A stretch of DNA of 47,981 nt. It comes from Pseudomonadota bacterium. GTDB taxonomy: Bacteria; Desulfobacterota; Desulfobulbia; Desulfobulbales; CALZHT01. Positions 35,881 through 41,851 of this stretch are shown here, one piece after another. Every line of letters starts with the position of its first letter. Positions within the stretch are counted from its first letter, which is position 1. The position numbers and the translations under genes were made by a program. Under the pieces are notes generated by a model. The model made no database searches. It saw only the letters and a list, made by a program, of their open reading frames with translations, and was not told the DNA's origin. The stretch spans positions 1 through 47,981 of the forward strand of contig JAHJJF010000091.1 of assembly GCA_018823135.1 (NCBI GenBank), written 5' to 3'.

Positions 35881-36450
35881 TTATAGCAGCCGGTATGGGT
35901 ATGCCCGCCGCGTCCACTCATTCTCCGGCCAGGTGGCGGCAAGCTTTTCATATGCACCTTTGAGCGGTGCGGGATCCTGGGTGCTTTTATATCTGCACAC
36001 CCCTTGCAGATACACAGCCTCAGGTGCGGCATCGCTCTTTGCATAAGTATCCAGAAGTTTGCCAAGAAAGGTCAACGCTACATCGGTTTGATCGGCATCA
36101 AACGCTGTCTTTGCCTGACCCAGAATCAATGACGGAATGAGTTGCGCCGGGTCGAGAAACCCTACGGTGCGGTGATGTTCTTCGCCTTTGCCGTCCAGGG
36201 TAATCAGCGAAGGGGTCCATTTAATGTTAAAATCCGTGGCAAGGGGTTGGCTGTCAGATTTAACCCTCACCGGGATTATGTTCTCCATAATAAACGCGGC
36301 AACACTGCTGTCAGGATACGTCACGGCATCCATTTGCTGGCAGCCGATTCAATGTGGATTATGAAAATCAAGCAAAACTGTTTTCCCCTGCGCTTTGGCC
36401 TTTTTCACGGCCGCAGCCAAATCCGTCTCCCAGACAATTAATTTCGTCAT
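35881..36450 (-). CDS. Thioredoxin-like selenoprotein (UxxC active site)
   Basis: Read from ATG 36450 (AAGGAGC four bases upstream) with one in-frame UGA as selenocysteine, this gives a 189-residue protein. The fold starts with a beta strand VLLDFHNPH and an active site U34-I-G-C37, then a helix (QQMDAVTYPD), the cis-proline loop WTPSL and a C-terminal TPR-like helical region (about 115-189). UxxC in place of CxxC is a common selenoprotein form and should raise redox reactivity. If UGA were a true stop, the upstream 33 codons with a good ribosome site would be unexplained, and the frame continuing after it would lack the active-site Sec/Cys. Ordinary gene calling would begin at Met40 and lose the active site. 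It has no signal peptide, so it is probably cytoplasmic. Sec insertion needs SelABCD encoded elsewhere. Confidence 0.85.
36304..36348 (-). promoter_or_regulatory. Candidate SECIS hairpin after the thioredoxin UGA
   Basis: In the mRNA just after the UGA (36349-36351), CTGC/GCAG can enclose GGAT/ATCC with a ten-base loop starting with G, 21 bases past the UGA. An alternative nearer fold is CGGC/GCCG with CCA/TGG and loop GCAAA. Either fits a bacterial SECIS in part; I cannot compute which is more stable. Confidence 0.45.
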
Positions 36451-38632: not shown

Positions 38633-39631
38633 TCATTTTATCCCGCAGAGAATTGCAGAATCATTAGGGCTCTTGAATGGATGCCGGTAAATATCTCTGA
38701 CCCCGGCGGTTTCCAGCATTGAGGTTAATTCTTCTTCGGAATAGGACCTTCCCGCCGGATTATTGATCAGCATGTTGATTGAAAACAGCGCCGCAAACTC
38801 CGGGGCATCCTTGTTATTATCAAGGATGAACTCATGAATCATGATCAGGCCGCCTGGCTCCATTGCACCAACGGTTTTATTTATCATGTCCTGACATTCA
38901 TCCGGGCCGTTGCTGTGCAGTATATGCGAAAGCCAGGCAACATCGTACGGGCCGCCGGTAATCGAATCGAAATTAATATCGCCACCCGCAAAATCAATCC
39001 GTTCGCCAAGTCCGAAACTGGTTACTGTTTTCCGCGCAAAAGGCTCTGTGGTCGGGCGATCGAAAATAACCGCATTGAGCTCTGGATTTTCCTTACAGAA
39101 ATGAATGGCATAGGTGCCGGGACCACCGCCCAGGTCGAGGAGCCGTTTTTTCCCGGAAAGGTCTGTCTGGGCAGCGACCACAGGCGCGTTTCCCATGGCC
39201 AGATTAAACATGCCCATAAGAAAGCTTTCGCGCTCAATCTCCTCACCGTAGGATCTTGTTTCAACCGGCTTTCCGGTAATAACCGCTTTATCCAGTTGTG
39301 CCCAGCCATCAAGAATATGATGATGATGTAAAATGATATAGCCGATATATTTTTTTGAATCCTTGCAAAGAAATTCCAAGGCGGCTGGTGAATTAACATA
39401 GATCGAAGCTTTTTTGTTCAATAAGCCCATTGCCGACAAGGCATTGAGCAGATACTCGCAACCTCGCTGATCGGCACCGATTTTTTCTGCAATAAATGAG
39501 AGGCTCCTGCACTGATCGCCTATGATTGTAAATACATCAAGCCTGACTCCTGCCTGTAAAGCGCAGCCTTTCCAGAACGCTGTTGAGGTGCTGAGCAATT
39601 TTCCAATAGTCCATTCCTTATTTACCAGCAT
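38633..39631 (-). CDS. SAM-dependent methyltransferase (O-methyltransferase-like, dimerisation domain)
   Basis: The 332-residue enzyme has an N-terminal winged-helix dimerisation region (about 10-95) and a C-terminal Rossmann methyltransferase domain with the SAM-binding glycine loop LLDLGGGPGTYAIHF (about 169-183). The acidic ribose contact lies in VIFDRP. This plan matches acetylserotonin/hydroxyneurosporene-type O-methyltransferases, though N- or other acceptors are possible. GGAGG six bases before the ATG supports the start. It is divergent from the selenobiotic precursor across 276 bases, so it may be an accessory enzyme of that locus, or unrelated; it also sits just upstream of the HAD phosphatase gene. 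Confidence 0.85.
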   Translation of the reverse strand: MLVNKEWTIGKLLSTSTAFWKGCALQAGVRLDVFTIIGDQCRSLSFIAEKIGADQRGCEYLLNALSAMGLLNKKASIYVNSPAALEFLCKDSKKYIGYIILHHHHILDGWAQLDKAVITGKPVETRSYGEEIERESFLMGMFNLAMGNAPVVAAQTDLSGKKRLLDLGGGPGTYAIHFCKENPELNAVIFDRPTTEPFARKTVTSFGLGERIDFAGGDINFDSITGGPYDVAWLSHILHSNGPDECQDMINKTVGAMEPGGLIMIHEFILDNNKDAPEFAALFSINMLINNPAGRSYSEEELTSMLETAGVRDIYRHPFKSPNDSAILCGIK

Positions 39632-39907
39632 TATGTTCCTCCAATTGTAGAATTTCCGTTAAAAAATTCTTCTGCGCAGAATACAGATAATCATACACAA
39701 GCAACTCGGGTTTGCAAGTGTCATAATCCCTGCACCTCTTAAATACGTTTTTTCCATAATTATTTTTTTGACTTGTGCTCATCACGCCTGATACCCTCTG
39801 ATTCTATAAAAGATTCATCATCACAAGACATCTCCGATCCACCGGGTTTCTCATTCCTGGGAGAGGAGCCCTCAATTATTAACCCATAAATACCATGGGA
39901 GGCTTCT

Positions 39908-40108
39908 ATGGATTCAAAAAATCTGAAGAAAATCCTTGCCGGACTTGGTATCGCAAGCCTGTTGGCCGGAGCAGCTTTTTCCATTACCGGTTGCACGAAA
40001 ACAGGCAAAAGCGCTTGAACGGGAGAAAAACCCGGTGCAGGTAGCACCGAAAAACCCGGAACAAGCGCTTGAAGCGGTAGCAAATCCGGTGCAGTTGAGC
40101 ACCGATAA
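39908..40108 (+). CDS. sbtA: Selenobiotic (SbtA-type) RiPP precursor with two in-frame UGA (Sec) codons
   Basis: GGGAGG lies five bases before the ATG. The first 36 codons read MDSKNLKKILAGLGIAS, then SLLAGAAF and a lipobox-like SITGC. This is the characteristic leader of the SbtA thio(seleno)oxazole/selenobiotic RiPP family as I know it. Codon 37 is UGA (40016-40018), yet the frame continues with a repeated core: KSA-U-TGEKPGAGSTEKPG, then TSA-U-SGSKSGAV, with a second UGA at codon 55 (40070-40072). Family members with Cys have KS(S)C-SGEK at the same place, so Sec replaces Cys. The frame as given ends at TAA 40106. Compared with the first unit, the second has one extra base (GTTGAGCACC against GGTAGCACC); removing it would extend the peptide to about 85 residues ending DEGADTCAGCPWRF (stop near 40166). 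A one-base sequencing error, a real mutation or a frameshift signal could explain this. Its maturase lies 148 bases downstream. Confidence 0.82.
40034..40048 (+). promoter_or_regulatory. SECIS-like hairpin 1 in sbtA
   Basis: A perfect 5-bp stem GGTGC/GCACC holds the loop AGGTA. The loop starts 20 bases past the first UGA and has G in its second position, as bacterial SECIS elements require. It closely resembles the E. coli fdhF SECIS tip (stem GGU-GC/GCACC, loop AGGUCU) but lacks the bulged U. Confidence 0.65.
40088..40103 (+). promoter_or_regulatory. SECIS-like hairpin 2 in sbtA
   Basis: The same GGTGC/GCACC stem recurs with loop AGTTGA, again exactly 20 bases past its UGA. The stem is identical to hairpin 1 although neighbouring bases have diverged, which suggests it is conserved for structure. 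Confidence 0.6.
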
Positions 40109-40255
40109 ACGCAAAAAAGTGGATGAGGGGGCTGATACCTGTGCGGGTTGCCCCTGGCGCTTCTAAAAATCACTTGCTTACGGCTCAGGATCAAGGGTAA
40201 CGTTTAAGTTGTTTTCATTAGTCACTAACGTCTTTCGTCCGGCCCAGGACCGGAT

Positions 40256-41851
40256 ATGGAGATACCCGTGCAGGAGACATTAAAAAAAACCCTTGATACA
40301 ATTTTTCCGCTCTGCAAAGCAACCCTTCCCGCTAAAGACTGGAAGAGTGTTGTAGAAGAATGCGGACCGGACTTTGAGCCGGAAAAATTCCTGAACACTC
40401 TCTCTTTCCAGGCGGGCGACGACGATAAAAATTTATTACCGGATCTCGCCCGTCTGGAGCTTGCAGCCCACGCAGCTGAAAACACTGCGGTGGCAACCAA
40501 TCCAGAATCGATTTCCATCAATCCATCTCTCCATCTGCTGGAAATATCCTGGCAAAAACTCCTGCCCCTGCTGAACAAAGTTCATCCCGATGACCAAGAC
40601 AGGGAAAGCGAGATGATTCTTGTCTGGAAGCTGCAACACTCCGGTGAGGTTGTGATGCGGCCGGCCATTGAAACCGACCTGTTAGCGCTTAAAATTATCA
40701 TTGAAGAAATCCCTCCGGAATCATTAATTTCCGGAAGTGATCTTTCTGTGGGCTCGGTGGACCAGACATTGAAAGAAGCCGTCCGCAAAGGAATTCTGCT
40801 GTCCCCGGGATCAAAAATACGCCGGGATCCCCTTTTTCTTAAAGCTGGACCTGCTTTTGACGCATATCAAACCGCTGAAGTTTTTACCCTGCAATGGCAT
40901 ATAACTCAGCAATGCGATCTCAGCTGCAAACATTGTTATGACCGAAGCGACCGAGCTCCCATGCCTCTTGAATACGGCTTGATAGTTCTTGACCAGATGC
41001 GCGCTTTTTGCCTGGAAAATTACGTCGATGGCCAGGTGTCCTTTTCCGGCGGCAACCCCCTGCTTTATCCCTATTTCCACGAGTTATACCGGGCTGCGGT
41101 GGACAGGGGCCTGGGCGTTGCAATCCTCGGAAACCCGACGCCGAAACAGGCAATGGAAAGAATTATTGCCATCAGAAAACCGGCCTTTTACCAGATCAGC
41201 CTTGAAGGCCTTGAAAAACAAAACGACTCCATCCGGGGGGCCGGACATTTCAAGCGTGCCCTCAAGTTTCTTGCGCTTCTGAAAGAACTTGAGATCTATT
41301 CCATGGTCATGCTCACTCTCACCCAAGACAATATGGGTGAAGTCCTGCCGCTGGCGGAGTTTTTAAGGAACAAAACCGATCATTTCACCTTCAACCGCCT
41401 TTCCCGGGTGGGCGAAGGTGCCAACCTGGTCTCAGCCCACCGTGACCGATTCAAGGAATTCCTGGCTGATTATCTGGTTGCAGCGGGGAAAAATCCCATT
41501 CTCGGCCTCAAGGACAACCTCTTTAATATTCTGCAATTTCAGAAAGGCTTGCCCCCCCTTGACGGTTGTGCCGGTTACGGTTGCGGCGCGGCTTTCAACT
41601 TTCTCACCGTCCTGCCTGATGGCGAGGTGCATGCCTGCAGAAAATTTCCATCTCTGATCGGCAATATTTTTGATCAATCCTTAGGTGACATCTATTTTTC
41701 TGGAGGCGCCCAGCGCTACAGAAACGGCTGCACAGACTGCAGCGACTGCCCGATCCGCCCGGCCTGCGGCGGCTGCCTTGCCATTGCCCATAGTGCCGGG
41801 CATGATGTTTTCACAGAGCGTGACCCGTATTGTTTTATCGAATCAGGATGA
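40256..41851 (+). CDS. sbtM: Radical SAM/SPASM maturase of the selenobiotic peptide (SbtM-type)
   Basis: The 531-residue enzyme has a helical N-terminal region (about 1-205) and a radical SAM barrel with CDLSCKHC (C220, C224, C227) holding the 4Fe-4S cluster that cleaves SAM. A C-terminal SPASM region is rich in cysteines: GCAGYGCG near 441-448, CRKF, CTDCSDCPIRPACGGC and a final DPYC, enough for two auxiliary clusters. The layout and the adjacent SbtA-type peptide identify it as the thio(seleno)oxazole-modification maturase. It probably crosslinks or cyclises the Cys/Sec residues of the core. The start could be ATG 40256 (AGGA six bases upstream) or GTG 40268 (GGAG six bases upstream). It follows sbtA on the same strand. 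No transporter or protease of the pathway is seen nearby. Confidence 0.88.
   Translation: MEIPVQETLKKTLDTIFPLCKATLPAKDWKSVVEECGPDFEPEKFLNTLSFQAGDDDKNLLPDLARLELAAHAAENTAVATNPESISINPSLHLLEISWQKLLPLLNKVHPDDQDRESEMILVWKLQHSGEVVMRPAIETDLLALKIIIEEIPPESLISGSDLSVGSVDQTLKEAVRKGILLSPGSKIRRDPLFLKAGPAFDAYQTAEVFTLQWHITQQCDLSCKHCYDRSDRAPMPLEYGLIVLDQMRAFCLENYVDGQVSFSGGNPLLYPYFHELYRAAVDRGLGVAILGNPTPKQAMERIIAIRKPAFYQISLEGLEKQNDSIRGAGHFKRALKFLALLKELEIYSMVMLTLTQDNMGEVLPLAEFLRNKTDHFTFNRLSRVGEGANLVSAHRDRFKEFLADYLVAAGKNPILGLKDNLFNILQFQKGLPPLDGCAGYGCGAAFNFLTVLPDGEVHACRKFPSLIGNIFDQSLGDIYFSGGAQRYRNGCTDCSDCPIRPACGGCLAIAHSAGHDVFTERDPYCFIESG

Follow-up and report, generated by a model that had tools for sequence, protein, structure and literature searches.

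The sbtA gene described here encodes a RiPP precursor of the SbtA family in which two UGA codons are predicted to be read as selenocysteine (Sec), and the resulting residues are likely made into selenooxazole rings by the adjacent maturase SbtM; we put the probability of this overall reading at roughly 85%. The gene itself, with its two units of a UGA codon and a predicted hairpin, is a direct observation from the window, by which we mean the whole 47,981-nucleotide stretch of DNA analysed (Table 1). SbtM chemistry and a two-Sec entry for the family are already in print, so the gene joins a known family, and its unusual part is a third core unit, probably decaying, that lies beyond the stop codon.

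Table 1. Positions of the sbtA locus features and of a neighboring predicted selenoprotein gene, numbered along the window
Feature	Position	Strand	Details and basis
Thioredoxin-fold predicted selenoprotein gene (UIGC)	35881..36450	-	UGA 36351-36349; PF13098
Shine-Dalgarno-like GGGAGG	39897..39902	+	5 nt 5' of the sbtA ATG; sequence
sbtA	39908..40108	+	66 residues with UGA as Sec; ATG 39908, TAA 40106-40108
sbtA leader, residues 1-29	39908..39994	+	Family signature, last residues lipobox-like ITGC; TIGR04081, 45.8 bits
UGA1, codon 37, predicted Sec	40016..40018	+	Sequence and UGA sites of relatives
SECIS-like hairpin 1, predicted	40033..40049	+	6 bp, 5-nt loop AGGUA; z -2.64, score 17
UGA2, codon 55, predicted Sec	40070..40072	+	Sequence and UGA sites of relatives
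SECIS-like hairpin 2, predicted	40087..40104	+	6 bp, 6-nt loop AGUUGA; z -1.67, score 17
Out-of-step stretch (borders approximate)	40096..40118	+	One base off relative to relatives; frame 0 contains the in-frame TAA; aligned to unit 1 of the same gene and to G001
Detached third core unit, KSGUGG and TGA	40115..40135	+	UGA3 40124-40126; frame of the ATG; hairpin below threshold
sbtM, 531-residue radical SAM/SPASM maturase	40256..41851	+	TIGR04082, 672.3 bits; PF04055, PF13186

The precursor gene and its maturase

With UGA translated as U, sbtA encodes the peptide MDSKNLKKILAGLGIASLLAGAAFSITGCTKTGKSAUTGEKPGAGSTEKPGTSAUSGSKSGAVEHR. In a profile search its leader scored 45.8 bits against TIGR04081, the model of the SbtA family thio(seleno)oxazole RiPP precursor (cut-off 30.5, E 3.5e-12), while Pfam at E 0.1 returned no family for the peptide. 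Each UGA codon of the reading frame lies inside one copy of a repeated unit, S-A-U-[TS]-G, with 54 nt from one UGA to the next. Two SAU units of the S-[GA]-U/C type that marks the SbtA core are present in the reading frame, and one SGU unit follows the TAA. The original prediction, made from the DNA letters, of an SbtA-type precursor with two in-frame UGAs at the same place in a repeated core unit is confirmed on both counts. It had also warned that standard annotation would stop at 36 residues, and this is what has happened: a search of a public protein collection with the 66-residue peptide returned a sole match, P0123, a 36-residue entry that is identical to the start of the query and stops at the first UGA. 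P0123 illustrates how the standard code truncates SbtA genes at the first UGA. The same protein search found no close strain with which constraint at the gene could be compared.

The leader carries ITGC at residues 26-29 after a hydrophobic stretch, a lipobox by simple pattern match. Across the leaders of 143 SbtA members, simple patterns of this kind found a lipobox-like motif in 23 and an AxA motif in 117.

A dedicated radical SAM/SPASM enzyme had been expected after sbtA, and the gene found there has a product that scores 672.3 bits against TIGR04082, the SbtM model (cut-off 350), with both radical SAM and SPASM domains. Its frame is open over the full length, it is the only SbtM over the cut-off in the window's genome, and it shares 44-62% identity, over the best segments, with the 7 relatives compared. 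Treatment with SbtM has been reported to remove four hydrogens from each of the Cys and Sec substrates, with NMR identifying the Cys product as a thiooxazole (PMC11002830). The likeness of the window's enzyme to this reported thio(seleno)oxazole former lies in the 672-bit, full-length match and in the radical SAM plus SPASM architecture; the activity of the reported enzyme was observed, whereas that of the window's enzyme is predicted from sequence at the identities given above.

Flanking genes for an O-methyltransferase (38633-39631), a sucrose-phosphatase-like HAD phosphatase, an M23 peptidase and a PfpI protein were left out as cluster members. Each of the four gave 0 tblastn matches in other loci, compared with matches to SbtM in 82, a result that concerns close linkage because the flanks of the other loci extend for at most 3 kb and often for less than 1.5 kb.

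UGA codons and hairpins across the family

SbtA is widespread in the window's class, with matches over the cut-off in 133 of 257 genomes; SbtM was over its cut-off in 128 of the 257, with at most five candidates scored per genome. Loci were taken from the SbtA places listed, leaving out one at a contig edge (G111:C90), and the 173 leader matches among these places gave 152 distinct reads. This set includes weak matches as well as a small number of reads continuing beyond genuine stops; its reads carry no UGA in 6 cases, one in 20, two in 61, three in 40, four in 20, five in 4 and six in 1. Requiring a leader score of at least 18 and a length of at most 180 residues dropped 8 reads with lower scores and 2 longer than 180 residues, and left 142 in which the corresponding numbers, from zero to six UGAs, are 5, 16, 57, 40, 20, 3 and 1. 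The UGAs counted at the core site were those after two small residues (362 of 368), a second TGA after SGU[SG]G or IEGC being treated by rule as a stop, and 134 of the 142 reads contain at least one counted UGA. The nearest relative by kinship, G001, which belongs to the same family as the window's organism, has three: MDAKDLKKILAGLSIAGLLAGAALSATGCCPKSSKSAUSGDKPGAGSTTTPSGQSAUSGAGGAGGTDKPKGTSAUSGK.

Sec is the rule at the core site and Cys is rare. The motif site is UGA in 346 instances across the survey and Cys in 34, with 11 of the Cys sites beyond residue 31. The expectation that Cys would stand at this site in other members therefore holds to the extent that Cys does occur, and it was overstated. 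Loss of conservation after the first UGA had been named as a sign that the prediction was wrong; the homologues carry conserved sequence there.

A hairpin was scored as the best within 50 nt 3' of each UGA preceded by two small residues in the 142 reads, with a threshold of 12. The threshold was reached at 333 of the 346 UGA sites, 277 of which also had GU in the loop, compared with 11 of the 34 Cys sites (3 with loop GU). Some of these Cys controls are lipobox cysteines, and hence the sites past residue 31 were tallied separately, giving 3 of 11 (2 with loop GU). Mononucleotide shuffles reached 12 in 1020 of 6920 cases, and in 181 of 6920 with loop GU. Plain folding energy separated UGA from Cys sites less well than did the hairpin score: the means over 40 nt were -11.59 kcal/mol for internal UGAs, -10.17 for last UGAs, -9.66 for Cys sites and -6.46 for shuffled sequence, the closeness of the Cys controls being due in part to some of them lying just 5' of a UGA.

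The difference in hairpin frequency between UGA and Cys sites gives the repeated core the look of a UGA-plus-SECIS cassette. Among the loops AGGTA is the most frequent (72 sites), and 292 of the 333 scored hairpins have a loop of 5 nt. Within the 12 residues after an internal UGA, a GA[GV]ST-like motif ([SG][AST][GV][SG][TASV]) occurs at 204 of 253 sites; because GGTGCAGGTAGCACC encodes GAGST and can also fold as a hairpin, we infer that this motif is the coding footprint of the hairpin. The repeat supplies a reason for linker conservation downstream of each Sec. A review has already stated that a Sec insertion element directly follows the TGA in SbtA precursors (PMC11002830); the class-wide count of hairpins per UGA comes from the present analysis.

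Both UGAs of the window's reading frame are followed by such a hairpin, CGGTGC-AGGTA-GCACCG after the first and CGGTGC-AGTTGA-GCACCG after the second. The second is the weaker when compared with dinucleotide-preserving shuffles, from which the z values in Table 1 derive. Its 6-nt loop, one base longer than usual, is shared by 5 of the 333 scored hairpins, which suggests that UGA2 may be decoded less well.

Bacterial Sec decoding is put to a stringent test by genes that hold several UGAs, and SbtA mostly presents two or three UGA-plus-hairpin cassettes, with up to six. Several UGAs per message are also seen in selenoprotein P of animals, which is unrelated to SbtA. The Sec signals of selenoprotein P are in the 3' UTR, in contrast to the hairpin after each UGA in SbtA. 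Within the selenoprotein family table of the review PMC13188914, TIGR04081 is entered as 'selenobacteriocin' with the motif SGUG and a figure of 2 that we understand as its Sec count. The window's gene resembles this family in its leader, its S-[GA]-U units, its UGAs with a hairpin downstream and its neighboring SbtM; it differs in that the units of its reading frame are SAU, its leader ends in the lipobox-like ITGC and a third unit is severed by a frame break.

Predicted selenocysteine decoding in the host genome

A check of the assembly for selA to selD had been proposed, and three of the four genes are present: selA (641.6 bits in a profile search), selD (348 bits, with one in-frame TGA, in CGU) and selC, the tRNA-Sec gene (70.5 bits, confirmed by ARAGORN). 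The genome thus has the selA, tRNA-Sec and selD by which a bacterial selenoprotein may be recognized. The fourth, selB, was found neither by a profile search, in which the best match was an EF-Tu-like open reading frame, nor with the SelB protein of G001 as query. Among genomes of the same family, selB was found in G001, and none was over the cut-off in G002. The failure to find selB counts against Sec decoding here, but the assembly is 95.33% complete and in 157 contigs, so a gap at selB is possible. Two neighbors of selB in G001, identified by eye, were followed into the window's genome: the best score there for the HflX-like protein, 23 bits, is too low for a true match, and the MBL-like gene stands in a different context. 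Both selB and the hflX-like gene were sought in the assembly and not found, a shared gap or loss. The dependence of the core on UGA, as originally proposed, is borne out by the conservation of UGA and hairpin in relatives together with the Sec machinery of this genome.

A second predicted selenoprotein gene, which speaks for Sec decoding, lies 3.5 kb from sbtA and encodes a thioredoxin-fold protein with the motif UIGC. Reading through its UGA raises the PF13098 match from 25.3 bits and partial to 52.6 bits and nearly full length. Among the 120 homologues listed of 1,046, 12 were aligned at full length, and the Sec place is Cys in 3 of them and Trp in 9; we interpret the Trp as UGA translated under a code that assigns TGA to Trp. 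A further 4 aligned homologues, as well as the window's own database entry (150 residues), start just after the UGA, and 102 of the 120 are 149-151 residues long. The fold after this UGA was not significant (z -0.27).

A detached third unit and alternative readings of the gene

The 66-residue reading frame of the original prediction stands; what it missed is a third unit and a frame break past the TAA. Beginning 6 nt 3' of the TAA is a KSGUGG unit, which is the C-terminal unit of the family, and the UGAs of the three units start at 40016, 40070 and 40124, a spacing of exactly 54 nt. A search of 205 loci (1,009,258 codon positions) for KSGU[SG]G directly before a stop gave 35 matches at 31 distinct places; a loose substring test puts 34 of them inside SbtA reads, and the remaining one is the window's third unit. 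Between units 2 and 3, a linker like that of relatives (STDK) appears only when the sequence is read one frame over. Alignment with the window's own unit 1 and with G001 assigns one extra base to the hairpin 2 loop, and a stretch of about 20 nt that includes the TAA is out of step with both flanks.

We regard the third unit as probably vestigial, the remnant of a gene end that is decaying through small insertions and deletions. The same bases would be seen if the frame break and TAA were errors of sequencing or assembly and the gene had three intact units, its product carrying three Sec and ending in KSGUGG by an otherwise unchanged mechanism. Units 2 and 3 do share a frame at the regular spacing, the shifted stretch does yield a family-like linker one frame over, and members with three UGAs are frequent (40 of 152 reads). 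Decay is favored over such an error, which we consider rather unlikely, by the hairpin of unit 3, which scores 10 (z 0.34) and so falls below the threshold that 90 of 94 last-unit UGA sites of relatives reach. Also against an error is P0002, a 144-residue antisense open reading frame spanning 39760-40194, which is present letter for letter in public protein data on one 3,475-base contig; a second contig, possibly built from the same reads, thus seems to carry the same bases across the break, in support of decay. This argument is weakened by two other window proteins, P0003 and P0123, which are also on a 131,297-base contig for which P0002 is not listed. Recoding, with a shift near the hairpin 2 loop and a shift back near the A-run at 40113-40118 to give a minor three-Sec form, would explain why the frame is identical on both sides of the break and why its borders fall at conceivable slip points, a hairpin loop and an A6 run. 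It would, however, require the frame to shift twice, in opposite directions, over about 20 nt, and only one other of 143 members (G001:C171) has a detached final unit, KSGUSG past the stop and in a different frame, which makes recoding the least credible of the readings weighed here. With this second case, loss of the last unit may recur.

A more radical possibility is that the UGAs are ordinary stops and that the locus is a pseudogene or has a 36-residue peptide as its product. The single database match, with its 36-residue product, and the failure to find selB in the window's genome are in keeping with it; the family-wide conservation of UGA and hairpin, the presence of Sec machinery and other selenoprotein genes, and an sbtM that is open over its whole length make it very improbable.

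Two further candidates were set aside. The +1 frame past the break is open to a TAA (STDKRKKVDEGADTCAGCPWRF), and its Cys-rich end was rejected as the true C-terminus, the KSGUGG end of the family being in frame 0. Matches to a detached unit in two other loci (L008 and L142) lie inside an open reading frame of another frame and were judged to be chance.

Proposed maturation and function

If the two UGAs are read as Sec, SelB and tRNA-Sec would decode each with the help of the hairpin that starts about 14 nt downstream, and the present product would contain two Sec and end at the TAA. SbtM would then remove four hydrogens per Sec site to give a selenooxazole, by extension from the in vitro report on another SbtM. 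The leader, which resembles a lipoprotein signal peptide, would route SbtA outward, and, to judge from the motif match, Cys29 may be lipidated.

Absorbance near 305 nm has been described for 5-thiooxazole compounds and for modified SbtMa, and 5-thiooxazole peptides made by other enzymes bind copper (PMC12668002). The captophorins and bufferins, which are 5-thiooxazole copper-binding RiPPs, are alike in this absorbance (PMC12668002); they differ in being made by MNIO enzymes, a different enzyme family from SbtM, and in that copper binding is theirs, whereas for SbtA products it is putative and argued by analogy. No MNIO enzyme was present among the 8 window proteins scanned. Given these copper-binding peptides and the signal-like leaders, an exported metal ligand is the function that we prefer for the SbtA product, with low confidence. 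It is tempting to go further and speculate, very tentatively, that SbtA peptides are exported multi-selenooxazole metal ligands, lipid-anchored in this clade, in which tandem copying of the UGA-hairpin cassette, to as many as six UGAs per message, loads a surface peptide with selenium ligands. Perhaps, then, GA[GV]ST exists for the coding of the hairpin and not for any need of the enzyme. The repeat offers ready targets for testing the role of a selenium peptide.

Variation among precursors

Viral contigs were scanned for exact copies of the window's unit 2 stretch, and none was found. Four SbtA-like reads (L011, L105, L119 and L136) have Cys and one or no UGA and are natural Cys versions. Other reads (L069, L073, L074, L078, L080 and L096) end in AIEGC and not in the SGUSG unit; an [IV]EGC end, with its conserved C-terminal cysteine, occurs in 16 of the 152 distinct reads. 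The window's genome contains a second sbtA (L081, G000:C98:57023) with one UGA, a long acidic tail and APGY repeats.
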